Of a stretch of 64,000 bases of DNA, positions 2,118-16,065 are shown one piece after another. The number at the start of each line of letters is the position of its first letter. Positions within the stretch are counted from its first letter, which is position 1. This DNA comes from Actinoallomurus bryophytorum (GTDB lineage Bacteria > Actinomycetota > Actinomycetes > Streptosporangiales > Streptosporangiaceae): assembly GCF_006716425.1 (NCBI RefSeq), contig NZ_VFOZ01000001.1, forward strand, positions 2,480,001 through 2,544,000, read 5' to 3'. A model generated the notes under the pieces. The model was not told where the DNA came from and did not search any database. It saw only the letters and a list, made by a program, of their open reading frames with translations. Position numbers and translations under genes: made by a program.

Positions 2118-3284
2118 CTAGTGCAGCGCGCTGCCCTTGACCCAGCTGGTCCAGGACTGGTTCCAGAAGGTCCAGCCGTTGCCCGGCTCCAGCTTGCGGT
2201 CGGTGCCGGTGACGTTCACGGGGTCGCCGCGCTGGGCGATGTTGTAGAACCAGCGGGCACCGGTCGGCGACGTACGAACGCAGCCGTGGCTGATGTTGCT
2301 GTGGCCCAGCGCGTAGAACTGGCCGGGGCTCTCGTGGATGTACTCGCCGCGGTCGCTGATCCGCACCGCCAGCGGGATGTCCTCGGAGTAGTAGCCGGGG
2401 TCGCCCTTCTTACGCCCGGGCGACACCATGTGCACCATCGTCGCCTTTTCCTTGGTGAGATGGATGCCGCTGGCGGTGGTGTACTCCCGCGTCGTCCCCA
2501 TGCCCGTGCTGATCGGGAACTTCTTCACCGTGCCGTCGTGGTTGACCTTCATGTAGTGCGTCTTGCTGTTCGCGACGGTGATGTTCGACGCGCCGATCTT
2601 GAAGGACTTGGTGACGTCCTGCGTGCCGTAGACGCCCTTCAGCCCGCGTACGCCGGCCATGTGGGCGGTGAAGGTGATGTTCTGGTGCGGCTGCCAGTAC
2701 TTCTGGGTGCGGTAGACGACCTGCTGGTCCGAGATCCAGTGCCACGCGCCGACGTCGTTCTTGTCGGACTTGACCTCCAGGGCCTTCTCGACGTACGCCC
2801 GGTTGGCGATCGCCTTGTCGAAGGTCACGATGATCGGCATGCCCACGCCGACCTTCTCGCCCGGCATCGGCGTGACGTCGCTGATCGAGAACGTCTGAGT
2901 CGCCTTCTGCGCGGTGAACTTGCTCGTCGCGCTGACGGCCTTGCCCTCGGGGCTTTTGCCAGAGGCGTTGACGGCGTAAGCCGCGCCCGGCTTGAGCGTC
3001 CAGGTGGTCTTCCACTGCGTGTGGTCCGCGTTGAAGGCGCCGGGTACGGGCTTGTTGCCCGACACGACGCTGACCTGGTCGAGCTTGCCACCCTCCGCCG
3101 CGACCGTGATCCCCTGGTCCGGGCGTGCCTTGGCGGTACCGTCCACCGGCGTGATCCGTACCTGCGCGTCGGGCGCTTTCGTGCCGTTCTTACCGTTCGT
3201 GCCCGCCTCGCTGCTCGTGCATGCGCACGCGCCCGCCAGCAGTGCCGCCATGATCAACGCGACGGCCGACCGCCTATTACTCAC
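2118..3284 (-). CDS. L,D-transpeptidase with Ig-like domains (cell wall 3-3 cross-linking)
   Basis: A 388-residue exported protein of the YkuD/ErfK family. The order is a hydrophobic signal segment with an LLAGAC lipobox-like site, two bacterial Ig-like domains (about 40-240), and a C-terminal YkuD domain with the catalytic motif SHGCVR (Cys near residue 334). This is the architecture of mycobacterial LdtMt2-type enzymes, which make 3-3 cross-links in peptidoglycan outside the membrane. The GTG at 3284 is chosen because GGAGG sits 6 bases upstream; a GTG at 3308 would include that site. A paralogue with the same layout lies at 27665-28819. The residue before the lipobox Cys is Ala rather than Gly, so lipidation is likely but not certain. 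Confidence 0.9.
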   Translation of the reverse strand: MSNRRSAVALIMAALLAGACACTSSEAGTNGKNGTKAPDAQVRITPVDGTAKARPDQGITVAAEGGKLDQVSVVSGNKPVPGAFNADHTQWKTTWTLKPGAAYAVNASGKSPEGKAVSATSKFTAQKATQTFSISDVTPMPGEKVGVGMPIIVTFDKAIANRAYVEKALEVKSDKNDVGAWHWISDQQVVYRTQKYWQPHQNITFTAHMAGVRGLKGVYGTQDVTKSFKIGASNITVANSKTHYMKVNHDGTVKKFPISTGMGTTREYTTASGIHLTKEKATMVHMVSPGRKKGDPGYYSEDIPLAVRISDRGEYIHESPGQFYALGHSNISHGCVRTSPTGARWFYNIAQRGDPVNVTGTDRKLEPGNGWTFWNQSWTSWVKGSALH

Positions 3285-3361
3285 CCGAGTCCTCCCAGCT
3301 TTGCCCACAGCGGATGAGACGCACTAGGTGCGCAAAATGTTTGCCAGTTGGGGTTAGAAAA

Positions 3362-4339
3362 TCACCCGGCGTACGAGTGCAACCCTGAAACCAGATAGTT
3401 GATTCCAAAAAAGTTGAACAGCAGGCACCCGAACGCGATCAGCGAGACGATCGCCGCCTTCTTCCCTCGCCAGCCCGCGGTGGCGCGGGCGTGCAGGTAG
3501 CCGGCGTAGCCAACCCAGGTGATGAAAGACCAGGTCTCCTTGGGGTCCCAGCCCCAGTAGCGGCCCCACGCGGAGTCCGCCCAGATCGCTCCGGCGATGA
3601 TCGCGAAGGTCCAGATCGGGAACGCGAACATGATCGTCCGGTGTGCCAGGGAGTCCAGCACCGCGGGGCGGGGGACGCGGTCGAGCATCCCGCCCGGCTT
3701 GGCCGGAACATACAACTTGACCAGATAAAGGACAGTCGCGAGGCCGGCCACCGCGAACGTTCCCGTGGCGGTCACCGCGGCGGTCACGTGGATGGCGATC
3801 CAGTACGAGTGCAGCGCCGGGCGGAGCGGACCCGGGTCGTCGTAGAGCCAGATGGTGGCGACGCCGAGCGCGATCAGGACCGCCACCATGAGGTACGGGC
3901 CGAGCCAGCTGATCCGGTGGCGCCAGAGCATCACGAGGTAGACGGTGACCGCGGCGAACGTGATCGCGCACACGAACTCGTACATGTTGCCCCACGGCAC
4001 GCGGTCCGCGGCGATGCCGCGGGTGACGATCTCCGCGCCGTGCAGGCCCCACGCGATGACGTTCATGAGGATGGCGAAACGGCCCCAGTCGACCTTGCGG
4101 CGCTCCTCCGCCTCAGGCACGTCGTCCGCCTCAGGCACGTCGTCGGCCTCGACCTCACCGGTCTCCGGACCGCCCGCGCCGACCAGCACCTTGGCCTGCT
4201 CCGGTACGTCGGCCTCGGCACGACGGGCGAAGGCGACCTCCGCGGCGTACGCGACCATGGCCACGACGTAGACCAGCACGGCTCCGAGCATCAACTGGTT
4301 GCTCAGGTTCGCCAGATGGGTGTCGACCATGGTCGTCAC
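3362..4339 (-). CDS. ccsB: cytochrome c maturation protein CcsB (ResC)
   Basis: A 325-residue polytopic membrane protein of cytochrome c biogenesis system II, which with ResB carries haem across the membrane and attaches it to apocytochromes. It has about eight membrane segments, a charged acidic cytoplasmic loop (about 50-80), and the haem-handling tryptophan motif WGRYWGWDPKETW (about 255-267). The start is GTG at 4339, overlapping the resB stop by 4 nt (GTGA), so translation is probably coupled; an ATG three codons later is the alternative. It is the last gene of tlpA-ccdA-resB-ccsB. No terminator is obvious in the 77 bases before the next gene. Confidence 0.93.
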   Translation of the reverse strand: MTTMVDTHLANLSNQLMLGAVLVYVVAMVAYAAEVAFARRAEADVPEQAKVLVGAGGPETGEVEADDVPEADDVPEAEERRKVDWGRFAILMNVIAWGLHGAEIVTRGIAADRVPWGNMYEFVCAITFAAVTVYLVMLWRHRISWLGPYLMVAVLIALGVATIWLYDDPGPLRPALHSYWIAIHVTAAVTATGTFAVAGLATVLYLVKLYVPAKPGGMLDRVPRPAVLDSLAHRTIMFAFPIWTFAIIAGAIWADSAWGRYWGWDPKETWSFITWVGYAGYLHARATAGWRGKKAAIVSLIAFGCLLFNFFGINYLVSGLHSYAG

Positions 4340-5919
4340 TCCTCGTCAGGGGTTGTGGGAGCGGCCCCCGAGAGCCGCTCGGCGATCGCGTCGAACTCCG
4401 GTGTCGTGCCGCCTAGAGTCAGCCCGCCGATCTCGACCACCGTACGCCCGCCGTCTGTGGCCCGTGCACGGACCCACATCCTGCGGCGACGTACGAGGAA
4501 CGAGGTGACGATGCCAAGAATCGCGACGATGCCCGCGGCGAGCGCGGGGACGCGGCCGGGATCGTGGTTGACCTGGATGGTGATGTACTGCCGATAGCCG
4601 TCGAAGGTGACCGATCCGGCGCCGCCCGGCAGCGTCTCGGTCTGGCCGACGGCGAGCGGCTTGACCGCAGGCCCCATGATGAGCGGCTTCAGCTTGGCGG
4701 TGTCGAGCCGGTAGACCGACTGCGGCTCGCCGTTGGCCAGGCCGAGGTCGCCTTTGAACGCGAACAGCGCCACCTGGGGGTTCCACGGGGAGGGGAACGC
4801 CGAGGTGACCTTTCCCTGGGCGTCCGGGACGGCGGTCGGCCAGAACAGCCCGATGAAGCCGAGCTGGTCCGGCTGGGCGTCGGGGACCTTGATGACGCCC
4901 TCGGAGGCGTACGTCGCCTCGTTCGTCGGCAGGAACGGCACCGCGCCCTCGAAGGCGATCTGCCCCTTGCCGTCGCGGACGGTGAACCGCGGCGAGTATC
5001 CGTGACCGAGCAGGTAGACCCGCGCGCCGTCGATGTTGAGCGGGTGGTTGACCTGCAGGTCGTACGGGCGTACCGGCGCCTTGAGGTTCTTCTGGTAGCG
5101 GATCTTGGCGGCGAACTCCGTGGGCTGGCCCCGGTTGGCACCGGTGGAGAGGTAGGCCGCCTTGAACGAGTCGAGCCAGACGGTGAACGGCGGCAGCCCC
5201 GAGGAGGAGAAACTCCGGCCGCCCTTGAAGGCGTCGTAGGAGGTCAGCGAGTTCGAGAAACCCTCGCCCTCGGTCACCAGGACGTTGCCCTTGTAGCCGA
5301 AGGCCGCGCCGGAGCCGACCGCGAACAGCAGGACGAGCAGCGCCAGGTGGAAGACCAGGTTTCCGGTCTCCCGCAGGTATCCCTTTTCGGCGGCGACGTG
5401 GTCGTCGTGCACGTCGGTGCGGAACCGCCGGTCGCCCAATACCTTCGCGGCCTCGGCCAGCACCTCGCCGGGCGCGGCGTCGGTCTCGTAGGACGCGGTC
5501 TGCGGCAGCCGGCCAAGGTGGCGCGGGGCCTGCGGCGGCCTCGACCTGATGTGCTCGAAGTGCTGCCAGGACCGCGGCAGCACGCAGCCGGCGAGGGAGA
5601 TGAACAACAGGATGTAGATGGCCGCGAACCAGGGCGCCGCGAACACGTTGAACAGCGACATCCGGTCGAGCCAGGGCGCGATGGTCTTGTGGGCGTCGAA
5701 GAACGTGCTGACCTTCTCCGGCGCGATCGGGCGCTGCGGCAGAAACGACCCCGGCACGGTGCCCAGCGCGAGCATGAACAGCAGGACGAGTGCCGTGCGC
5801 ATCGAGGTGAGCTGCCGCCAGCCCCAACGGAGCCAGCCGACCAGGCCGATGCCCTCCGGCCGCTCCTTCGGGGCCTGAGGTGAGGTCTGCGCCTCTGGGG
5901 CGTCCGTGCTGGCAGTCAT
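4336..5919 (-). CDS. resB: cytochrome c maturation protein ResB
   Basis: A 527-residue membrane protein that partners with CcsB in system II cytochrome c maturation. Two membrane segments near the N terminus (about 45-65 and 105-125), a third near 200-220, a large extracytoplasmic domain, and a final membrane segment near 460 match ResB. The ATG at 5919 shares its first base with the ccdA stop (TGATG). The frame stays open upstream inside ccdA, but that extension is Arg/Pro-rich shadow sequence. The N-terminal 35 residues are polar and poorly conserved in such proteins. Confidence 0.92.
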   Translation of the reverse strand: MTASTDAPEAQTSPQAPKERPEGIGLVGWLRWGWRQLTSMRTALVLLFMLALGTVPGSFLPQRPIAPEKVSTFFDAHKTIAPWLDRMSLFNVFAAPWFAAIYILLFISLAGCVLPRSWQHFEHIRSRPPQAPRHLGRLPQTASYETDAAPGEVLAEAAKVLGDRRFRTDVHDDHVAAEKGYLRETGNLVFHLALLVLLFAVGSGAAFGYKGNVLVTEGEGFSNSLTSYDAFKGGRSFSSSGLPPFTVWLDSFKAAYLSTGANRGQPTEFAAKIRYQKNLKAPVRPYDLQVNHPLNIDGARVYLLGHGYSPRFTVRDGKGQIAFEGAVPFLPTNEATYASEGVIKVPDAQPDQLGFIGLFWPTAVPDAQGKVTSAFPSPWNPQVALFAFKGDLGLANGEPQSVYRLDTAKLKPLIMGPAVKPLAVGQTETLPGGAGSVTFDGYRQYITIQVNHDPGRVPALAAGIVAILGIVTSFLVRRRRMWVRARATDGGRTVVEIGGLTLGGTTPEFDAIAERLSGAAPTTPDEE

Positions 5920-6650
5920 CAGATCACCGTCTTGAAGCCGGATACCCAGCCTTGCATCTTGATCGTGAGGTCGGTCCAGGCACCGGTGACCAGGAGCACC
6001 CCGATCGTGACGAGCAACCCGCCGCCGACGCGCATCACCGCCTGGTAGTGCCGCTTGACGAAGCCGAACGCGCCCAGCGCCCTGCGGTAGGCCAGCGCGG
6101 TGATCAGGAACGGCAGTCCCAGGCCGAGGCAGTACGCGAACGACAGCAGCGCCCCGCGGGTCGCGCTCGCCTCGCTGTAGGCCATCGCCTGTACGGCGGC
6201 GAGCGTCGGCCCGATGCACGGCGTCCAGCCGAGCCCGAACAGCATGCCGAGCAGTGGCGCGCCGGCCACGCCCGCGGCCGGGAGGCGGCTGGACTTGACC
6301 GTGCGCTGCAGGCCGGGGACGAATCCCATGAACGCCAGGCCCAGCACGATGGTGATCGCGCCCAGCACCCGGGTGAGCACGGTGGCGTGCCGCTGCAGCA
6401 GCGCGCCGAAGCCGCCGAAGGCCAGCCCGGCGCTGACGAACACGACCGTGAAGCCGAGGACGAACAGCGCGACGCCCAGCAGCAGCCGTCCCCGTCGCTG
6501 CGCGGCCAGGTCGGCGCCGCTCATGCCGGTGACGTAGGACAGGTAGCCGGGCACCAGCGGGAGTACGCACGGGGACAGGAAGGAGACGAGGCCGGCCGCC
6601 GCCGCGACCGGGAACGCCAGCACCAGGGAGCCGTCGGTAACCGTGCTCAC
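5919..6650 (-). CDS. ccdA: thiol-disulfide carrier CcdA
   Basis: A 243-residue membrane protein with six predicted segments. It moves electrons from cytoplasmic thioredoxin to the extracytoplasmic thioredoxin TlpA/ResA so that apocytochrome CXXCH cysteines stay reduced. The paired cysteines are in [11 protein letters not shown] (first segment) and [10 protein letters not shown] (fourth). The start is GTG with a GAGGAG site about 9 bases upstream. It lies 25 bases after tlpA and overlaps resB by one base, so it belongs to the same operon. Confidence 0.93.
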
Positions 6651-6675
6651 CTCGTGTGCTCCTCGCCTGTCCGGA

Positions 6676-7248
6676 TCACTTCTCGGCCACGAGCCGGGTG
6701 ACGATGTCCTTCAGGGACGTGTACGACACGCTGCCGATGGTGCGTGCCGCGACGGTGCCCCGGCGGTCGATGACGAGCGTGGACGGCACGGCGTTGGGCG
6801 GAATGTCGCGGAACGACAGCGCGATCTGCCCCGCCTGGTCGAACAGGCTCGGGTAGGTGATCTTGAAGGTGCGGAGGAACGCCTGCGCGTTGTCCTTGCC
6901 ATCTTTGATGTCGACGCCCACGAACTGCACGCCGGAGGCCTTGGTCTCGTCGTAGACCTTCTGCATCGTCGGCGCCTCGGCGCGGCAGGGCGCACACCAG
7001 GACGCCCAGAAGTTGACCACCGTGACCTTGCCCTTGAAGTCGGCCAGGCCGAGCGGCGTGCCGTCGAGCGCGGTGCCCTTGACGGCGGGCGCGGGCTTGC
7101 GGTCCTTGATCAGCTCACTGGCGCCGTCGCCCGCGACGTACCGCGAGTCGCCCGGGCCACCGCTCTGCACTGCCGACGCGCCCGCACAGCCCGCGAGGGC
7201 GCCGGCGAGAAGGATCACGGCCGGCACGGTCAGAACACGACGGATCAC
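6676..7248 (-). CDS. TlpA/ResA-type thioredoxin lipoprotein
   Basis: A 190-residue secreted thioredoxin-fold protein that reduces apocytochrome c outside the membrane. It has a lipobox (LAGALAGC), a short linker, and a thioredoxin domain with the active site [11 protein letters not shown] (about 80-90) and a cis-Pro loop at VPSTLVID. The GTG at 7248 is chosen because AGGAG lies 8 bases upstream and the signal peptide begins there; longer in-frame forms would place soluble sequence before it. It is the first gene of the cytochrome c maturation operon, and a dyad operator lies just upstream. Confidence 0.92.
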
Positions 7249-7262
7249 GGGGAAGCTCCTAC

Positions 7263-7279
7263 TACTACAGGGCGTAGTA
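7263..7279. promoter_or_regulatory. BlaI/CopY-like dyad operator upstream of tlpA
   Basis: A perfect inverted repeat TACTAC-N5-GTAGTA lies 14 bases upstream of the tlpA start, between it and the histidine phosphatase gene. The shape matches the TACTAC...GTAGTA operator I recall for actinobacterial BlaI-type repressors. No BlaI gene lies in the window, so the regulator would act in trans. The dyad itself is seen; the regulator identity is inference. Confidence 0.55.
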
Positions 7280-7303
7280 CTTGGTCCTATTGTGCCCGAG
7301 GGG

Positions 7304-7936
7304 TCAGGCGCCAGGAACACTGGGGCGGCGCGACAGCTCCCCGGCCGGCTCGGCGTAGTCGACCTTGACCACCCGGCCGTCGTCGTAGGTGATGCTCGTG
7401 ACGCTGGCCAGGCCGCACTGACGCCGTGCCGGGTTGTGCCACAGCCTGCGTCCCTCGATCTTGCGGCGGGTCACCCAGATGGGCAGCTGGTGGCTGACGC
7501 ACACCGCTTCGTGCCCGGCGGCGGCTTCGCGTATGTCGGCCATGGCGGCCAGCATCCGGCGGGCGATCTCCTCGTAGGGCTCACCCCACGAGGGACGGAA
7601 GGGGTTCCAGAGGAAGGGCCAGTGCTCGGGGCGGCGCAGCGATCCGTCACCGACGCCGAAAGTATGGCCCTCGAAGTGGTTGGCGGCCTCGATCAGCCGC
7701 TCGTCGGTCCCGATCGGCAGCCCGAGCGTCGCGGCGATCGGCGCCGCCGTCTCCTGGGCGCGTTCCATCGGGGAGGAGTACAGCACGGTGATGTCACGCC
7801 CGGCGAACCACTTGGCCGCAGCGTCGGCCATCAGCCGCCCGTCATCGCTGAGGTGGTAGCCCGGCAGGCGCCCGTAGAGGACACCCTGCGGATTGTGCAC
7901 CTCGCCGTGGCGGAGGAGATGAACGATGGTCTTCAT
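7304..7936 (-). CDS. histidine phosphatase family protein
   Basis: A 210-residue cytoplasmic enzyme of the phosphoglycerate-mutase-like phosphatase superfamily. The catalytic LLRHGEV motif (His at residue 10) is at the N terminus, followed by YSSPMERAQETA (Arg and Glu of the pocket) and a second catalytic His in CVSHQLP. The substrate cannot be told from sequence. In many actinomycetes such a gene sits between hemL and the cytochrome c maturation operon; here hemL is about 6.8 kb away with a lanthipeptide locus and a metabolic cassette between. Confidence 0.88.
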   Translation of the reverse strand: MKTIVHLLRHGEVHNPQGVLYGRLPGYHLSDDGRLMADAAAKWFAGRDITVLYSSPMERAQETAAPIAATLGLPIGTDERLIEAANHFEGHTFGVGDGSLRRPEHWPFLWNPFRPSWGEPYEEIARRMLAAMADIREAAAGHEAVCVSHQLPIWVTRRKIEGRRLWHNPARRQCGLASVTSITYDDGRVVKVDYAEPAGELSRRPSVPGA

Positions 7937-8020
7937 GGCCGCCTCAGACTACCGGGCGGCCGGCACCGCGAAGCCAGGCGGGTGGAGACCGTCGGTGAAG
8001 ATTCGGCAGCGAGGACGTGA

Positions 8021-8048
8021 TCGGGGCCCTCGCGTGCGAAGGCCCCGA
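8021..8048 (-). terminator. hairpin after the lanthipeptide precursor gene
   Basis: Arms TCGGGGCC (8021-8028) and GGCCCCGA (8041-8048) pair perfectly around a 12-base loop that can extend the stem. It begins 14 bases after the precursor stop and would end the lanL-lanA transcript. Confidence 0.65.
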
Positions 8049-8061
8049 CCTGTCAGGGGTG

Positions 8062-8181
8062 TCAGCAGACGGTCGTCCAGGTGGGGACGCGGTCCGCCGC
8101 GGCGGGGATGCACGGCGTCCGGTCCTCGGCCACGCTCTCCTCGGGCAGCCGCTGCAGTTCGTCCAGGTTGCTGGTGATCAT
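8062..8181 (-). CDS. candidate lanthipeptide precursor (class III/IV type leader)
   Basis: A 39-residue ORF. The N-terminal leader MITSNLDELQRLPEES has the amphipathic LxxLQ / LPE-type signature of class III and IV lanthipeptide leaders. The C-terminal part TPCIPAAADRVPTWTTVC has two Cys (24 and 39) and four Thr (22, 34, 36, 37) available for dehydration and ring closure; there is no Ser in the core. The ATG overlaps the stop of the synthetase gene by 4 nt (ATGA), and AGGA lies 8 bases upstream. Leader and core match a lanthipeptide better than any other reading of this spot. The leader cleavage site is not visible; an Arg-Thr junction at 21/22 is one guess. The product and ring pattern are unknown. 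Confidence 0.8.
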   Translation of the reverse strand: MITSNLDELQRLPEESVAEDRTPCIPAAADRVPTWTTVC

Positions 8182-10940
8182 GGGGACTTCCTTTCGGGGG
8201 GATGGACTCGATCAGTGCGGCACGGCGCCGCACGTTCTGGCGGCCCGGCGACCGCGCCGGGGAGCGGGGGCATGAACAGCCGGAGCGGTACGCCGTTCAG
8301 CCGCAGCAGGGCGGCGACGGCACCCGCCGTGCCGACGCCCCAGCCGGGGAACACCTCGACGCCGCTGTGGTCCGGGGTGAGGAGCAGCCCGTCGCGGACG
8401 ACCGCGCGGGCGGCCATGGCCGAGACGGCCTCGCGGGCCCAGGTCGCGTGGCGTTCCTCCCCGGTCGCCTCGGCGACGTCCATCAGGTACTCGATGGAGC
8501 CTGCCGTGCCATGACAGTGGACCGGCCGCGACTGCCAGACGTCGTGGCGTACGGCGGCGGCCGCACCTCTGGCCGCGGCGAGGAGGTCCGCCTCACCGGT
8601 CACCCGCCACAGCCGCAGCAGGAACCCTCCGACGCCGGCGGCTCCGCTGCACCAGCCGGTCAGCGGGACCTGGTCGGCCGGACCGGCGCTCCACCGGGCG
8701 GTGCCGCCGTCACCCCACAGCGTGGCGGCGTGGAGCGTGCGGCCCGCGAGACGCGCGGCCGCCAGGCAGTCCGCCCGCCCGGTGACGATCGCGGCGTCGA
8801 GCAGGAAGGCGGCGATGCCCGCGGTTCCGTGCGCGAACCCGTGATGGGTGGCGCCGTCGGGCAGATGCGGAGGGTACGGGGGTACCGGCCAGGCGACGCC
8901 CTCGTCCCCGCGGACGGCCGCGCCGAGCAGCGCGTCGGCGCATTCGCCCGCCTGCCGCAGGAACGACTCGCGCCCCGTGTGCCGCCAGAACCGCAGGGCG
9001 GTCAGGCCCGACCCGGCGATCCCGTGGCTGACGTCCGGCACCGGACCGGCCACCGGAAGGCGCTCGGCGGCGTCGGCCGTCCGGGCGACGAGGTCCTCGT
9101 CGCCGAGCGCGATGCCCGCCTCCAGCAGCGCCCAGTACGTACCCGACCGTCCGAAGTGCAGGCCGGGCAGGACCTCGGGCTCCCGCGCGGCATGGCGCTC
9201 GAGCCAGCCTGCGGCGCGGATGGTGGCGGCGCTCAGTTCGGGGCCGGGCCGATATCCGTGTGCCGCCGCCAGCACACCGAGGATGCCGGCCGCGCCGTAG
9301 TAGACGTTGCACGGGTCGGTGGTGGCGCCGAACAGGTCGGCGGGCCACCAGCGCTCGGTCCCGGGCTCCGCCTCGCGGTCCGGATCCGTGCCGAGGCCAC
9401 CGGAGGCGATCAGGTGGGTGAGGCCGTCGTCGAGCAGGCGCCCGGTGTCGTCGTGCGTCCTCGCCGGAAGGCTCGTCCCCCCGTGGAGCGCCTCCCGTAC
9501 CGCGTCGAGAGGCGGACGACGGCCGGGATCTTCGTGGACCAGCCCGAGGATCAGCGGCCCGAGCTCGGCCGCCGTGGGGTTGTCGCGTGCGGCGCGCTCC
9601 AGCCAGCCGGCGACGCGGGACCGCGCGTCACGCTCGTCGTCGGCGGCGAGCAGGGGTTCGGCCCCCGTCGCCAGGGCGAACAGGATCGCGCCGAGGCTGT
9701 GAAGGTCGGCGGCCGGACTCGTACGGCGTCCGGTCCACTGCTCCGGCGCGGCGTAGCCGGGCGAACCACCGGGGACGGCGTCCTGGCCCGGTACGCCCGC
9801 CAGCTCCAGGTCGATCAGGCGCAGGCCGCCGTCCGGGAGCACCAGGACGTTGGCGGGGGTCAGGTCGCGGATGACGACGCCCTCGCGGTGGACGGCGGCC
9901 ACGAGGTCGGCGAGCCGTACCGCGGTCCGCCGTACCTCCTCGGGATCGGGCCGTCCGGCCCGTCCCCGGTGGAGCCGCTGCAGGTGGACGGCGAGCGACA
10001 CGCCCTCGATGGCCTCCACCACGAGGAAGGTGTGCTCGGGGAGTTCGAGCAGGGCGTGGACGCGGGGCACGACGCCGGTCGGGGCGAGCCGATCCAGAAC
10101 GCGGGCCTCGTTGCGCAGGAGGTCACGTACGTCCCCGCCGTCGGGGCGTACCTCGACGTACCGCCGGCCCTGCTTGACCACGACCTCCTCACCGGTCCGC
10201 TGGTCCGTGGCGCGGTAGACGCCGCCCTTGTTCGCGTGCCGGATCGCGCCGCGCAGCAGGAACCGGTCACCGACCAGCACGCCGCGCGGAGCGCCCGGCG
10301 CGCCCTGCGGGGGCTCGGGGAAGGGGTTGGCGGGCGCCCAGGACGGCGGATCGAACCAGGCCGCGCGGCGGTCGGCGACACACGTGCCGTCGGGCGCCGT
10401 CACCACCGGCTCGTAGACGCCGTTGGCGGCCAGCCGCAGCCTGCGTACGAAGCCGCCGAAGCGAAAGTGCACCAGGCTCCCGGTGCGAAAGGGGCGGTCG
10501 GACAGGATGCGCGGTCCCGGCAGGCCCTCGGTCGCCTCGTCCAGGGCGCCGGCCAGCTCCGGCAGGCCGTCGTCGTCCGGCGGGTAGACGGTGAGGAACT
10601 TGCCGGCCGCGCCCCGGTCGAAGTGCCGTCCGTTCAGCCGGGCGACCTCCCCCGGCGACGCGGCGAACTTGAACGGGCAGCCGGCCGCCACGAGCACGGG
10701 CGTGGCACGTTCCAAGACCTGCTGCGCGGAGGACGGCACGGCCGACAGGTGGATCTTCCAGCCCTGGGCCCGCAGCCCGGAGCCGGACGGGGCGACGCGG
10801 GTCCAGGTTCCGGCCCGGTCGATCCGCCAGCCGGACCGCAGGTGCGCGGCCACGACCTGGAAGAAGGGCGTGGGGTCGTCCTTCGAGGAGGGTTCCCGCC
10901 GCCGCGGCTGAGGCATGGACGAATGACGTAACGCCGACAA
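8178..10940 (-). CDS. lanthionine synthetase LanL type (lyase-kinase-cyclase)
   Basis: A 920-residue three-domain enzyme that would phosphorylate and eliminate Ser/Thr of a precursor peptide and close thioether rings. The N-terminal lyase-like region is about 1-225. The Ser/Thr kinase-like domain is about 230-500, with glycine loop KGGVYRA, catalytic loop RDLTPANVL (near 357), IDLE in place of DFG, and GSPGYAAPEQW. The LanC-like cyclase domain is about 520-900. All three zinc ligands are kept: Cys in GWCSG (near 763) and Cys-His in CHGTAGS (near 808). Retained ligands point to class IV LanL rather than class III LanKC. The TTG start at 10940 has GGAGGA 7 bases upstream; the ATG at 10916 has no such site. 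The precursor gene follows with an ATGA overlap. No transporter or leader peptidase gene is adjacent. Confidence 0.9.
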   Translation of the reverse strand: MSALRHSSMPQPRRREPSSKDDPTPFFQVVAAHLRSGWRIDRAGTWTRVAPSGSGLRAQGWKIHLSAVPSSAQQVLERATPVLVAAGCPFKFAASPGEVARLNGRHFDRGAAGKFLTVYPPDDDGLPELAGALDEATEGLPGPRILSDRPFRTGSLVHFRFGGFVRRLRLAANGVYEPVVTAPDGTCVADRRAAWFDPPSWAPANPFPEPPQGAPGAPRGVLVGDRFLLRGAIRHANKGGVYRATDQRTGEEVVVKQGRRYVEVRPDGGDVRDLLRNEARVLDRLAPTGVVPRVHALLELPEHTFLVVEAIEGVSLAVHLQRLHRGRAGRPDPEEVRRTAVRLADLVAAVHREGVVIRDLTPANVLVLPDGGLRLIDLELAGVPGQDAVPGGSPGYAAPEQWTGRRTSPAADLHSLGAILFALATGAEPLLAADDERDARSRVAGWLERAARDNPTAAELGPLILGLVHEDPGRRPPLDAVREALHGGTSLPARTHDDTGRLLDDGLTHLIASGGLGTDPDREAEPGTERWWPADLFGATTDPCNVYYGAAGILGVLAAAHGYRPGPELSAATIRAAGWLERHAAREPEVLPGLHFGRSGTYWALLEAGIALGDEDLVARTADAAERLPVAGPVPDVSHGIAGSGLTALRFWRHTGRESFLRQAGECADALLGAAVRGDEGVAWPVPPYPPHLPDGATHHGFAHGTAGIAAFLLDAAIVTGRADCLAAARLAGRTLHAATLWGDGGTARWSAGPADQVPLTGWCSGAAGVGGFLLRLWRVTGEADLLAAARGAAAAVRHDVWQSRPVHCHGTAGSIEYLMDVAEATGEERHATWAREAVSAMAARAVVRDGLLLTPDHSGVEVFPGWGVGTAGAVAALLRLNGVPLRLFMPPLPGAVAGPPERAAPCRTDRVHPPERKSP

Positions 10941-10985
10941 GGCCAGTCCTCCGCCCGCGGTCGCCGACAGGGGTCAAGCTCGGAC

Positions 10986-11000
10986 TTTACGGATGGTAAA
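10986..11000. promoter_or_regulatory. inverted repeat in the lanL promoter region
   Basis: TTTAC-N5-GTAAA, a perfect 15-base dyad 46 bases upstream of the lanL start. It lies in the most AT-rich part of the gap between lysR and lanL and could be an operator or promoter element for the lanthipeptide genes. No dedicated regulator is identified. Confidence 0.4.
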
Positions 11001-11064
11001 CCGGCCCGTCAGTTCGCGCAATAGCCCCATTTTGGGACATCCGATCGCCGAGAGAGGCCGGCGG

Positions 11065-11988
11065 TCAGCCGGCCTCGGCGAGGGGCTCGATCAGCATCGG
11101 AGCCGCGGCACGGAGAGCGGCGACCGCGGCGCGGATGGCCGGGCGGCGGGCCGCCTCGGCGCGCCAGATCGCGTACACGTGACGCGTGAGCGCCGGCCGT
11201 ACCGGGATGACGCGGACACCCTCCGGGATGTCGCAGCGCCCCAGCCGGGGAACGATCGAGACGCCCAGCCCCACGGCGACGAGCGCGAGCTGCGTGGCGT
11301 ACTCGTCGGCGGTGTGCGCGATCAGCGGCTCCAGATCGGCCGAGCGCAGCGTGTGGACCAGCCAGTCGCGGCAGATCGCGCCCGGTGACTGGGCGATCCA
11401 GGACTCGCCGTGCAGCTCGCCGAGGTCGATCACGGACCGCCCGGCGAGCGGGTGCCCGGCCGGCAGCGCCACGTCCGCGATGTCGTCGACCAGCGACGCC
11501 TTGACCAGGCCGTCCGGGATGGCCAGGGGGACGTTGAACCAGTCCTGCACGATGCCGAGGTCGATCTCACCGCGTACGGCCAGGGGCACGGCGGCGTGCG
11601 GCTCCTGTTCGCGCAGGCACACCCGCAGCCGCGGATGCTGCCGGGCGAGGGCGGCCAGGGCCGGGGGTACGAGGCCGCGCGCCGCGGTCGGGAACGCCGC
11701 CATCGCGAGCTCGCCGACGACCTCGCCGCGCTGGGCCTCCAGGTCGGACTCGGCCTCCTCGACCATCGCCAGGATGCGCTCGGCGTGCGTCGCGAGCAGC
11801 GCGGCCGCGTCGGTGAGGCGTACCCCACGGCCGTTGCGTTCGAGGAGCTTCTGCCCGGTCTCGCGTTCGAGCTTGGCCACCTGCTGCGAGACGGCGGATG
11901 TGGTCACGTGCAGCACGTCGGCGGCGGCGCTCACTGAGCCGTACGTCGCCACCGCACTGAGGGCGCGGAGTCGATCCAGATCAAGCAT
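11065..11988 (-). CDS. LysR family transcriptional regulator
   Basis: A 307-residue regulator with an N-terminal winged helix (LRALSAVATYGSVSAAADVLHVTTSAVSQQVAKLE, shown here as key features: recognition segment TTSAVSQQVAKLE at about 29-41) and a C-terminal LysR substrate-binding fold (about 90-300). It is divergent from an EamA exporter gene with a 73-base AT-rich gap, the classic arrangement for a LysR protein and its target. It also lies upstream of lanL on the same strand, so read-through into the lanthipeptide genes is possible, although a GAGGCCGG/CCGGCCTC hairpin spans its stop codon (11053-11076). The effector is unknown. Confidence 0.9.
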   Translation of the reverse strand: MLDLDRLRALSAVATYGSVSAAADVLHVTTSAVSQQVAKLERETGQKLLERNGRGVRLTDAAALLATHAERILAMVEEAESDLEAQRGEVVGELAMAAFPTAARGLVPPALAALARQHPRLRVCLREQEPHAAVPLAVRGEIDLGIVQDWFNVPLAIPDGLVKASLVDDIADVALPAGHPLAGRSVIDLGELHGESWIAQSPGAICRDWLVHTLRSADLEPLIAHTADEYATQLALVAVGLGVSIVPRLGRCDIPEGVRVIPVRPALTRHVYAIWRAEAARRPAIRAAVAALRAAAPMLIEPLAEAG

Positions 11989-12061
11989 GAAGTAATGCTA
12001 CATATACCCATTAAAAGATAGTCGCTTGTTCTTAACAGTGGACCAGGCCAGCATCGGCCAT
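11989..12061. promoter_or_regulatory. divergent LysR / EamA promoter region
   Basis: A 73-base gap, clearly richer in A+T than its surroundings (catatacccattaaaagat), separates the two divergent starts. LysR proteins normally bind such gaps at T-N11-A sites; several candidates exist and none can be singled out by eye. Confidence 0.5.
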
Positions 12062-12958
12062 ATGAAACCTCGCCACGTCGCCATCGCGGTGATGATCGCC
12101 GCGATCTGGGGCGTCAACTTCGTCGTGATCGACGTCGGCCTCGCCTCGCTGCCTCCGCTGTTCTTCGCCGGGCTGCGCTTCGTCGCCGCCGCCTTCCCCG
12201 CGGTCCTGTTCGTACGTCGCCCCGCGATCCCGTGGCGCTGGTTCCTGCTCGTCGGGCTGCCGCTCGGCGTCGGCCAGTTCGGGCTGCTGTTCATCGGCAT
12301 GCACATCGGCATGCCGGCCGGTCTGTCCTCGCTGGTGTTGCAGACACAGGCGCTGTTCACCGCGATGTTCGCGGCCGTGATGCTGCGCGAGCGGGCGCGG
12401 CGGACCCAGCTGGCCGGGATGGTCGTGGCGTTCGCCGGGATCGCGCTGATCGGACTGTCGCTCGGCCAGGGCAGCCCGCTGCTCGCCTTCACGCTGTGCA
12501 TCGCCGCCGCGGGCATGTGGGGGCTGGCGAACATCGGCCTGCGGAAGGCGCGGCCGCCGGACGCGTTCGCGTTCATGGTCTGGGTCAGCCTCGTGCCGCC
12601 GATCCCGCTGCTGACGTTGTCGATGGTGTTCGAAGGCCCGCGGGCCGATCTGCACGCGCTCGCGCACATCTCGGCCGGTGGCCTGGGCGCGCTCTTCTAC
12701 GTCGCCTACGTCTCGACACTGGTCGGCTTCGGGACGTGGGGCTGGCTGCTGCGCCGTTACGAGGCCGGCCAGGTCGGCATGTACTCCCTGCTCGTCCCCC
12801 CGTTCGGCATCTCCTCGGCGGCGCTCCTGCTCGGCGAGCCGATCACCATGACGGACACGATCGCGGCCCTGCTCATCGTGGGCGGAGTCGCCCTGGGCAG
12901 CATCCGCCGCCGGGCCGCCGCGCCCGCGCCCCTTCCGCAACTGGCAGGTACGCGATGA
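12062..12958 (+). CDS. EamA/DMT family transporter
   Basis: A 298-residue inner-membrane protein with about ten hydrophobic segments in two repeated halves of five, the EamA (drug/metabolite) exporter layout; the first half opens with AAIWGVNFVVIDVGL. Relatives export amino acids or other small metabolites. The ATG at 12062 starts directly before the first membrane segment; the longer frame from 12026 would add 12 residues. The stop overlaps the next gene by ATGA, so export and the following enzymes are co-expressed. The divergent LysR gene is the likely regulator. Confidence 0.9.
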   Translation: MKPRHVAIAVMIAAIWGVNFVVIDVGLASLPPLFFAGLRFVAAAFPAVLFVRRPAIPWRWFLLVGLPLGVGQFGLLFIGMHIGMPAGLSSLVLQTQALFTAMFAAVMLRERARRTQLAGMVVAFAGIALIGLSLGQGSPLLAFTLCIAAAGMWGLANIGLRKARPPDAFAFMVWVSLVPPIPLLTLSMVFEGPRADLHALAHISAGGLGALFYVAYVSTLVGFGTWGWLLRRYEAGQVGMYSLLVPPFGISSAALLLGEPITMTDTIAALLIVGGVALGSIRRRAAAPAPLPQLAGTR

Positions 12959-13824
12959 TCGGCGGCATCCACGTCCCGCTGGTGACCCCGTTCGCCGCGA
13001 ACGGCGCGGTGGACACCGCCACGCTGGAACGCCTCGCCCACCACGTCCTCGACCAGGGCGCCGCCGGCCTGGTCGCGCTCGGCACCACCGGAGAGGCACC
13101 GATGCTGACCGAGGACGAGCGCCTCACGGTCATCGCGACCTGCCGGAAGGTCAGCGACGCCCACCGCACACCGCTCACGATCGGCGCCGGCACCATCGGC
13201 ACCGACGAGTCGGTACGCCAGGCCGAGATGCGTGCCGAGGCGGCCGACCTCCTGCTCGTGCTCGTGCCGTACTACCTGCGCCCCTCCGACGAGGGCGTGG
13301 TCGAGCACTTCGCGGCCGTGGGCGCGGCGGCCGGGGTGCCGCTGATCGTCTACAACGTTCCCTACCGCACCGGGAAGACGCTGCGCGTGGAGACGCTGCT
13401 CAGGCTGCTGGCCGCCGACCACGTCGCGGGCGTCAAGCACTGCGCCGGAGCGATCGACGCCGACACCCTCACCCTGCTCGCGCACGCCGACGGCGTGCTC
13501 GGAGGCGACGACGCGTTCCTGTTCCCGATGCTGACGCTCGGCGCGGCCGGTGGCATCGCGGCGTCCGCCAATGTCGCCCCGGCCGCGTTCGCCGCGATGG
13601 CCGAGGCCGCAGCTGCGGGTGACGCCGGACGTGCCGGGAACCTGCACAACGCTCTTCTGCCGCTGACGCGCGCCCTGTTCGCCGAGCCGTCGCCGGGCGT
13701 CATCAAGGCGGTGCTGGCCGAAACCGGGCTGATCGAGCACCCCGGCGTACGCGCGCCGCTGCGGGCACCCGCTCCGGCCTCGCTCGGCGCGGCCATGGAC
13801 GCACTGAAAGGATTGGCGGCATGA
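12955..13824 (+). CDS. dihydrodipicolinate synthase family aldolase/lyase
   Basis: A 289-residue class I aldolase of the DapA/NAL family. The family landmarks are GTTGEAPML (carboxylate binding, about 42-50), the catalytic Tyr in VYNVPYRTG (about 131-139), and the Schiff-base Lys in AGVKHCAG (about 160). Family members condense pyruvate with an aldehyde or cleave 2-keto-3-deoxy sugars and N-acetylneuraminate. The location in a LysR-EamA-LLM cassette rather than with dapB or lysA argues against the housekeeping lysine enzyme, but the substrate is unknown. It overlaps both neighbours by 4 nt. Confidence 0.88.
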   Translation: MIGGIHVPLVTPFAANGAVDTATLERLAHHVLDQGAAGLVALGTTGEAPMLTEDERLTVIATCRKVSDAHRTPLTIGAGTIGTDESVRQAEMRAEAADLLLVLVPYYLRPSDEGVVEHFAAVGAAAGVPLIVYNVPYRTGKTLRVETLLRLLAADHVAGVKHCAGAIDADTLTLLAHADGVLGGDDAFLFPMLTLGAAGGIAASANVAPAAFAAMAEAAAAGDAGRAGNLHNALLPLTRALFAEPSPGVIKAVLAETGLIEHPGVRAPLRAPAPASLGAAMDALKGLAA

Positions 13825-14738
13825 AGATCGGATTCGGCGCCCCTGTGGCGGGCGCATGGGCAAGCCCGGAAAACCTCGGTTACTTCGCCGGCCGCGCCGA
13901 GGAGCTGGGATACGACTCCCTGTGGGCCTTCCACCGCCTGCTGATCCCGGCCGACAAGTCCAAGATGGCCCCGGTCTACCACAGCGTCCTCGACCCGATC
14001 GGCGCGCTGACCTTCGCCGCCGCGCGTACGTCACGTATCCGGCTCGGCGTCGCCCTGGTCAACCTGCCGTTCGTCTCCCCGGCCTACCTCGCCAAGCAGG
14101 CGGCCACACTGGACGTCCTGTCCGGCGGTCGCTTCGACCTCGGGCTGGGCACCGGCTGGCAGAGCGAGGAGTTTGTGGCCAGCGGAGTCTCGATGGAGCG
14201 CCGCGGGGCACGCGCGGAGGACTTTCTCGCCGCGCTGCACACGTTGTGGGCGGACGAGGTCAGCTCGTACGACGGTGAGTTCTACACGGTCCCGCCGAGC
14301 CGAATGGCGCCCAAACCGGTACGGAAACCGGGCCCACCCGTCCTCCTGGGCGGCGCGGTCGACGCCGCGCTGAAGCGCGCGGGCCGTCTCGCCGCCGGCT
14401 GGATGAGCCGCAGCGCCACCGACCTGACCAAGATCCACGAGCAGATCGGGATCGTGCGCGACGCCGCCGAGGAGGCCGGCAAGGATCCGGACGCCGTCCG
14501 CGTCGTCGTACGCGGGGTCGTACGCGCCGGCCAGGAGGCACGGGACGACTCGGGCGAGCGCAAGCGGCTGTCCGGATCGTACGAGCAGATCCGCGAGGAC
14601 GCGGCCTGGCTCGGCGAGCTGGGCGTCACCGAGCTGTACTACGACCTCAACTGGGACCCGCTCGTCGGCTCCCCCGACGTCACGACCGAGTCGGCGACCG
14701 AGCGCGCCAAGGAGATCCTCGAGGCGCTCGCGCCCTGA
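13821..14738 (+). CDS. LLM class (F420-dependent type) oxidoreductase
   Basis: A 305-residue luciferase-like monooxygenase fold protein. The opening MKIGFGAP, the FAGRAEELGYDSLWAFHRL segment and LDVLSGGRFDLGLGTGWQ (about 93-110) are typical of the F420-dependent TIGR03619-like group. It probably oxidises or reduces a small molecule with F420H2 or flavin. ATGA overlap with the upstream DapA-like gene makes a three-gene operon EamA / DapA-like / LLM. It converges on hemL with only 10 bases between. Confidence 0.86.
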   Translation: MKIGFGAPVAGAWASPENLGYFAGRAEELGYDSLWAFHRLLIPADKSKMAPVYHSVLDPIGALTFAAARTSRIRLGVALVNLPFVSPAYLAKQAATLDVLSGGRFDLGLGTGWQSEEFVASGVSMERRGARAEDFLAALHTLWADEVSSYDGEFYTVPPSRMAPKPVRKPGPPVLLGGAVDAALKRAGRLAAGWMSRSATDLTKIHEQIGIVRDAAEEAGKDPDAVRVVVRGVVRAGQEARDDSGERKRLSGSYEQIREDAAWLGELGVTELYYDLNWDPLVGSPDVTTESATERAKEILEALAP

Positions 14739-14748
14739 CCGAGGGCTC

Positions 14749-16065
14749 TTACTCCGCCTCGGCGGCGGCTCGCGCCGCGTGCGGGAGCGCCTCGGCGATG
14801 CGGCCCAGTGCCGCGTCGTCGTGGGCCGCCGAGAGGAACCACGCCTCGTACGCGGACGGCGGGAGGTACACCCCTCGGTCGAGCGCGGCGTGGAAGAACG
14901 CCGCGTAGCGGCGGGTGTCCTGCTGCTGCGCGCCGTCGAAGTCGCGGACCTTCCCCGGTGCGAAGAAGATCGAGAACAGGTTGCCGGCGACCTGCAACCG
15001 GTGCTCCACGCCCTCCTTGGTGAGGGCGTCGGAGGCGAGCTCGGCCACCGTGGCCGCGGCGCCGTCGATCCTTGCGTAGACCTCGTCGGTCGCGCCCCGC
15101 AGGGTGGCGAGGCCGGCGGCGGTGGCCAGGGGGTTCCCCGAGAGCGTGCCGGCCTGGTACACCGGACCCGCCGGGGCGAGCCTGGACATGATCTCGGCCC
15201 GGCCGCCGAAGGCCGCGGCGGGCAGCCCGCCGCCCATGACCTTTCCGAACGTGCACAGGTCACCGGCCACACCGTCGATGCCGTACCAGCCGGAGCGGGA
15301 CACACGGAAGCCCGTGAGCACCTCGTCCATGATCAGCAGTGCGCCGTACTGCGCGCAGATCGCCTTGAGCCGGAGGTTGAAGTCGTCGAGCGGCGGCACG
15401 ATGCCCATGTTGGCCGGGCACGCCTCGGTGATGACGCAGGCGATCTGGTCGCCCTGCTCGGCGAATACCTCCTCGACGGCGGCGAGGTCGTTGTAGCCGA
15501 GCACGAGGGTGTCGGCGGTGGCCGCGCCGGTGACGCCGGGCGAGTCCGGCAGGCCGAACGTCGCGACGCCCGACCCGGCCGCGGCGAGCAGCCCGTCGGA
15601 GTGGCCGTGGTAGCAGCCGGAGAACTTCACGATCTTGGGTCGGCCGGTGAAGCCGCGGGCCAACCTGATCGCGGACATGGTCGCCTCGGTGCCCGAGCTG
15701 ACGAGGCGTACCTGCTCCACCGGGGTACGCGCGACGATCTCCTCGGCGAGCGTGACCTCACCCTCGGTCGGGGTGCCGTAGGAGGTGCCGAGCGCGGCGG
15801 CGCGCTGCACGGCCTCGACCACGGCCGGGTGCGCGTGGCCGAGGATCATCGGCCCCCACGAGCAGATCAGGTCGACGTACTCGTTGCCGTCGGCGTCGGT
15901 GAGGTACGGGCCACGGGCGGAGGCGATGAACCGGGGGGTGCCACCGACGGCACCGAAGGCGCGCACGGGGGAGTTCACTCCGCCGGGTATGACCGCGCCG
16001 GCCCGCTCGAACAACGCTTGGGAGATCTGGTCCGAAGTCACGCCTTCGAGTCTTTCAGAAGTCAT
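14749..16065 (-). CDS. hemL: glutamate-1-semialdehyde 2,1-aminomutase
   Basis: A 438-residue PLP enzyme that converts glutamate-1-semialdehyde to 5-aminolevulinate, the second step of C5 haem synthesis. Landmarks are VNSPVRAF near the N terminus, [15 protein letters not shown] (about 122-136), [12 protein letters not shown] (PLP Asp, about 248), and the PLP Lys in [10 protein letters not shown] (about 277). Length and motifs are standard. Its ATG overlaps the stop of the prim-pol gene by 4 nt, so the two are translated together. The other haem genes lie just upstream on the same strand. Confidence 0.95.

Follow-up and report, generated by a model that had tools for sequence, protein, structure and literature searches.

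The question raised by the reverse strand of a 64,000-nucleotide stretch of Actinoallomurus bryophytorum DNA (contig NZ_VFOZ01000001.1, positions 2,480,001 to 2,544,000; hereafter the window) is whether a large synthetase gene, lanL, and the 39-codon open reading frame (ORF) behind it, lanA, together specify a lanthipeptide, and if so of what kind. We consider it very probable that they form a two-gene operon for a class IV lanthipeptide, lanL-lanA, in an actinomycete of the Actinoallomurus type. A first-pass annotation of the same DNA had proposed a minimal locus consisting of a class IV LanL and its own precursor, and the class IV model NF038150, the domains, the zinc ligands and the orthologous pairs all agree with this proposal.

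The smaller gene, lanA (8062..8181, minus strand, ATG start), encodes the 39-residue precursor MITSNLDELQRLPEESVAEDRTPCIPAAADRVPTWTTVC, which contains two Cys, four Thr from position 22 onward and no Ser beyond position 16; the earlier description of a 39-codon ORF with two Cys, four Thr and a Ser-free core was confirmed in the sequence. The peptide was also found behind the orthologous LanL in two other species, with 36 of the 39 residues identical to those of the window in each, namely on a contig taken to be from Actinomadura sp. DC4 (G006) and in a genome taken to be a metagenome-assembled Actinoallomurus (G005). The ORF is therefore kept beside homologous synthetases in all three species, a point on which the first-pass annotation had staked its prediction. 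Across these species only positions 4, 5, 16 and 29 vary, and from Thr22 onward the single difference is at 29 (Ala or Val), with Thr22 and the leader residues E8-L9-Q10 being invariant. Each species pair shows six or seven silent codon changes against three replacements, and the ratio of replacement to silent substitution rates (dN/dS) is about 0.16-0.21 (NG86; 39 codons only). Since two other species carry the ORF behind their own LanL and silent changes outnumber replacements, this pattern of change marks lanA as a real gene, a precursor under protein-level selection, and the same two observations rule out a chance ORF. Of 297 genomes of the order, three matched a profile made from the three peptides, with up to 25 candidates scored per genome; all three belong to this genus, and the E values are 1e-28 to 1e-30. 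No named precursor family was found for the peptide in NCBIfam or Pfam, and the strings TWTTVC, DELQRLPEE and PTWTTVC were absent from the published paper texts searched, with supplements lying outside that search.

The larger gene, lanL (8178..10940, minus strand), begins at a TTG codon preceded by GGAGGA and encodes a lyase-kinase-cyclase synthetase of 920 amino acids. The start position aligns in the two orthologues, where a GTG codon is found in place of TTG, and the proteins are 72-76% identical with a dN/dS of about 0.28-0.34. Pfam places three domains on one chain in the order RamC_N lyase (27-212), Pkinase (238-479) and LANC_like (542-881), and the best solved relative, similar over residues 36-895, is chain 8car_A, deposited as 'Serine/threonine protein kinase'. 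For comparison, 250 genomes of the GTDB family were searched with up to three candidates scored per genome, and LanL was matched at E<=1e-150 in at least 61 places, spread over 47 genomes; 61 of these family places and a Micromonospora rosaria locus (L013) make up the 62 loci examined. In the alignment of the 62 LanL, the zinc-ligand columns of the window protein hold Cys764 (GWCSG) and Cys809 with His810 (CHG). All 61 relatives keep both Cys; as the third ligand, 58 have His and three have Cys. The claim of a lyase-kinase-cyclase synthetase with all three LanC zinc ligands is thus borne out by the domains and by these residues. Agreement with the near-invariant columns (at least 97% identical in the 59 LanL outside its own clade) extends to 102 out of 108.

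A class III system, which would form labionin independently of zinc, has the same domain order, and the class III model scores 483 bits on the window LanL. This is under the cut-off of 575 for that model, whereas NF038150, the class IV LanL model, reaches 937.7 bits against a cut-off of 650. The zinc ligands are present, and labionin requires Ser, which is missing from the core. The probability of a class III assignment is therefore negligible, and scores and motifs identify the synthetase as a class IV LanL with intact sites. In three of the related loci (L138, L139 and L140), CCG replaces CHG at the second and third zinc ligands of LanL; the precursor of these loci, (M/V)EIDIMALDTLPAE..., lies close behind LanL and a match to an S9 peptidase profile lies nearby. 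A 909-codon open frame runs antisense to nearly all of lanL (window 8202-10931, plus strand) and is probably a by-product of high G+C codon use.

It could be argued that lanA is a real gene and yet not the substrate of this LanL, the enzyme acting on precursors elsewhere, such as those of a second class IV cluster, while the small peptide serves some other purpose. The same genome does contain another LanL with two precursors. However, the lanA ORF is found only with this LanL clade, directly behind it in three of three species, it is absent from the five genomes of the genus without this LanL, and its leader is of the class IV type, which together make this explanation very improbable. The leader consensus of the relatives, in our own reading approximately DI.AL..LPAEES.L.PC, aligns with DELQRLPEESVAEDRTPC of lanA. 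The window peptide is also matched by a leader profile, which is partly circular because its 20 seed precursors come from these same loci, one of them being an orthologue.

Hits of this profile were accepted at E <0.15 on the LanL strand, within a fetched span that reached up to 4.5 kb ahead of LanL and up to 6 kb behind it. A precursor was recognised in 45 of the 62 loci, always downstream of LanL and never upstream, and 17 loci gave no precursor at that threshold; in L152, two plausible candidates with E values of 0.44 and 0.57 were left out. The first-pass annotation was right that the precursor comes after the synthetase, but it had treated this order as a departure, whereas all 45 recognised loci share it. 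Among 73 precursors, 65 have three to five core Cys and seven have two or fewer; Ser is lacking from the stretch counted as core in 18 of the 73. In a FastTree phylogeny of the 62 LanL, the window protein groups with its two orthologues (support 100) on a long branch; this clade joins L098/L100 at an SH-like support of 92, a join flagged as one between long branches.

By an S9 profile built from eight genes, of which Pfam confirmed three as Peptidase_S9, 35 of the 45 precursor-bearing loci have an S9-type gene alongside; the ten without one include the window clade of three. No S9 profile match was found in window 3001-15000, and neither a transporter nor a peptidase was found among the neighbouring ORFs with Pfam matches (two scans of ten ORFs each, LanL and LanA included). 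The locus might accordingly be seen as a decaying remnant from which the peptidase and transporter were lost and whose product is no longer made. Against this, three species retain both LanL and LanA in intact form and under purifying selection, seven loci outside the clade likewise combine a precursor with the lack of a recognised S9 gene, and the venezuelin cluster too is described as having no protease (PMC2843593); a remnant is thus quite improbable.

Likenesses are found both within the family and among characterised systems. Loci with the order LanL-S9 peptidase-LanA (e.g., L102, L105 and L113) share the leader motif, the downstream precursor and the zinc ligands with the window, but they contain the S9 peptidase and their LanL are at most 49% identical to that of the window. 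L098/L100 and L167/L169 have the precursor directly behind LanL and no recognised S9 gene, and the cores of L167/L169 also contain two Cys, although the cores of all four are unrelated to that of the window. In L106, an open frame with CxxxCxxC, a motif which we take to be typical of radical SAM enzymes, follows LanL and the precursor about 300 nt after the LanL stop. Among characterised systems, venezuelin of Streptomyces venezuelae (VenL/VenA) resembles the window locus in the lyase, kinase and LanC domains of its LanL, in a short precursor nearby and in its protease-free cluster, but VenA carries four Cys and four Ser/Thr in its core, and an ABC transporter, venTH, is encoded in the cluster (PMC2843593), whereas the window has two Cys, a Thr-only core and no transporter recognised alongside. 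SflA of Streptomyces sp. NRRL S-1022 is likewise class IV and is described as having no cluster protease, its leader being cut by an AplP-like enzyme encoded elsewhere (PMC8358304, PMC10885120); this likeness is drawn from review descriptions and not from sequence.

How the two genes are tied together is a further matter. In the window they overlap by four bases, ATGA, as the first-pass annotation had described, and it took this overlap to tie precursor to enzyme production. LanL ends at the ATGA overlap in two of the three species and 28 nt ahead of the lanA start in the third, so that the overlap is not what the loci conserve, and coupling based on it was rejected as the shared design. What all three species have in common is a 33-nt element, GAACGTGCGGCGCnnTGnCGCACnGATCGAGTC (8205..8237, minus strand), with a possible hairpin GTGCGGC-N5-GCCGCAC; it lies upstream of the lanA ribosome-binding site GAAAGGAAG (8187..8195, minus strand) and is followed by GAAAGGAA, which is aligned in all three. 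The DNA from the last conserved LanL residues (LFMPP) to lanA measures 74-94 nt in the three species. Two frames are used where LanL runs through the element: its tail reads PERAAPCRTDRV in the window and RTCGAMSHRSS in G006, with the tail of G005 in the G006 frame and ending inside the element, and the tails of the two orthologues are only 36% and 50% identical to that of the window. As different frames read the same conserved letters, this comparison indicates that the element is conserved as nucleic acid and not as protein, i.e., that it is non-coding. When folded alone, it gives a 7-bp hairpin in all three species (-11 to -14 kcal/mol), and in its 74-75-nt context the hairpin is part of the best structure of the window and of G005. 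Each of the three lanL genomes has a single copy of the element, which was not found in the other five genomes of the genus at up to three mismatches; a genome-wide operator was rejected on these counts.

Two further elements delimit the pair. Behind lanA lies a strong hairpin without a T run (8019..8050, minus strand), a likely transcription end identified by RNA folding; the z-scores of this stretch are -2.9, -2.2 and -2.6 in the three species, and the hairpin persists while the stem sequences differ. Ahead of lanL, the three-species alignment contains a conserved element TACC(A/C)TCCGTAAAG (10985..10998, minus strand), possibly a promoter -10 region with the transcript start.

The product would depend on which residues are joined. 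By comparison with relatives, the leader of lanA would comprise residues of about 1-23 and the core about C24-C39. Pro stands directly before the first core Cys in 35 of 73 related precursors; Cys24 is therefore probably at or near the core start, and Thr22-Pro-Cys24 probably straddles the border. The same alignment would put S16 in the leader. The earlier expectation that both rings would be methyllanthionine follows if Ser16 belongs to the leader, as the relatives favour, and fails otherwise. With Cys24 at the border, the remaining partners would be Thr34, Thr36 and Thr37 (and Thr22 if cleavage takes place earlier), and the bond of Cys24 would run to a Thr further along the chain. A Thr22-Cys24 ring, which had also been suggested in the first reading, is unlikely in view of the Pro found in those 35 precursors.

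Such a ring would belong to an arrangement of two separate N-to-C rings, Thr22-Cys24 and one of Thr34, Thr36 or Thr37 with Cys39, with the leader cleaved before Thr22. The invariance of Thr22 in three species fits this arrangement, while the placement of the first Cys at the border in the aligned relatives speaks against it, as does a steric argument, since a Thr-Pro-Cys ring would have to span one proline only. SflA is a class IV product reported with non-overlapping rings (PMC8358304), and for the window peptide we still hold separate rings to be unlikely. For venezuelin, bonds from a Cys to a dehydrobutyrine (Dhb) or dehydroalanine (Dha) behind it, Cys34-Dhb39 and Cys45-Dha49, have been proposed (PMC2843593). 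As a tentative suggestion, possible though doubtful, the window product may follow a new ring plan, a compact overlapping macrocycle in which Cys24 is linked backward onto a C-terminal Thr (13 residues if this is Thr37) and Cys39 onto a neighbouring Thr, and two hairpins, one ahead of the lanA ribosome-binding site and the other behind its stop, may set off the lanA message so that lanA is made in excess over the enzyme.

The two-gene operon would then work as follows. Transcription would probably run from the conserved element just before lanL to the hairpin just after lanA, and the element between the genes probably governs how abundant or how stable the short lanA message is in comparison with lanL. 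LanL would bind the DELQRLPEE leader, its kinase domain would phosphorylate core Thr residues, the N-terminal lyase domain would eliminate the phosphate to give dehydrobutyrines, and the zinc LanC domain would add the two Cys across them, Cys24 and Cys39 each being paired with Thr34, Thr36 or Thr37 and Cys24 attacking a Thr on its C-terminal side. Catalysis by LanL is assigned by analogy: the kinase and lyase modules of VenL act in turn in vitro and the full enzyme leaves no free thiols (PMC2843593), from which we infer the same course for the window LanL. The leader would be removed by a protease encoded elsewhere, for which the candidates are an M1 peptidase of the AplP type, cleaving at ELQ, and the S9 enzyme from the second cluster. 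The product may be exported by an unlinked transporter. A review names two kinds of enzyme that can take off class III and IV leaders, prolyl oligopeptidases and AplP-like M1 proteases with unlinked genes, of which the AplP-like ones cleave behind E-(I/L)-(L/Q) (PMC10885120); the lanA leader holds E8-L9-Q10, the genome has eight M1-peptidase matches and the second class IV cluster has an S9 gene.

Several observations weigh against the two-gene operon as described. The evidence for it is that of sequence, and one of the three lanL-lanA loci sits in a metagenome-assembled genome. The window clade departs from the 59 other LanL at six near-invariant positions, with window residues 68, 159, 173, 393, 692 and 695 deviating from the residue common to 58 or all 59 of them, and residues 692 and 695 are near the HG motif (704-705) of the cyclase domain. 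As 38 of the 73 related precursors have no Pro before the first core Cys, the border between leader and core is not firm. In G006, the intercistronic hairpin is missing from the best structure of the 74-75-nt stretch, and the 33-nt element may for this reason be a DNA element instead. Consensus scans gave no sigma-70 promoter and no T-run terminator at the operon ends, so that the promoter reading of the conserved element upstream of lanL is one that we infer.

The genomic surroundings suggest that the pair stands on its own. Upstream it is flanked by a LysR-type regulator gene (11065..11988, minus strand; Pfam), present in seven of the eight genomes of the genus, and downstream by a histidine-phosphatase gene (7304..7936, minus strand; Pfam), present in all eight. 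The latter is outside the pathway, and behind it lie genes of cytochrome-c biogenesis (thioredoxin-like, ResB and cytochrome-c assembly genes by Pfam). LysR as a pathway regulator was set aside, the gene being present also where this lanL is absent, and it is probably not part of the pathway. Several neighbouring ORFs without a Pfam match are probably not genes. This LanL occurs in three of the eight genomes, that of the window included. In G001, which is without it, the LysR and histidine-phosphatase genes are about 140 bp apart, forming an empty site; the spacing is about 12.7 kb in G007, 11.4 kb in G002 and 23.1 kb in G003 with other open frames between (the G003 interval being partly covered), and G004 gave no LysR match. 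The empty site and the variable spacing indicate that lanL-lanA is a self-contained two-gene unit at a variable site, gain and loss being alike possible. In this stretch (window 7936-11065; L125, L126, L127 and L128), the ORFs scanned in the three genomes with the longer interval match HTH/DUF5753, YkuD, luciferase-like, aldo/keto reductase and MFS families.

The same genome contains a second class IV LanL, 41% identical to the first (L097 8021-12700; G000:C1:2722143-2724713 and downstream). Behind it come an S9 peptidase, a pair of precursors that are nearly the same (VIELQALPEDLPTL...CGGTCKTN) and genes for an ABC transporter. Among 345 genomes sampled from the class, a sample in which G005 and G006 were not among the matches, LanL was matched at E<=1e-200 in two, that of the window and G093 (49% identity). 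With few matches in the order and class samples, the lanL-lanA family is narrow as far as these samples reach.

The class IV kind is known, with 815 class IV clusters and 401 class IV precursors listed by 2020 (PMC7268733), although a review calls the products of classes III and IV quite rare (PMC8358304). What is new is a strongly conserved precursor family, set apart by comparison with NCBIfam, Pfam and paper texts, the supplement of PMC7268733 being outside that comparison. The pair is small and expressible, with one enzyme and one 39-residue substrate that has two Cys and at most four core Thr, and at this size the ring topology would be tractable with a handful of variants. The parts most worth testing are the two-Cys, Thr-only core and the conserved intercistronic element, which suggests, in a form open to testing, how more precursor than enzyme could be made when the precursor gene comes second. 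For the organism, the locus would represent a compact two-gene recipe for a small ring-bearing peptide in a soil actinobacterium, and a core kept almost unchanged in three species, set against a quarter of divergence in the enzyme, speaks for a specific target.

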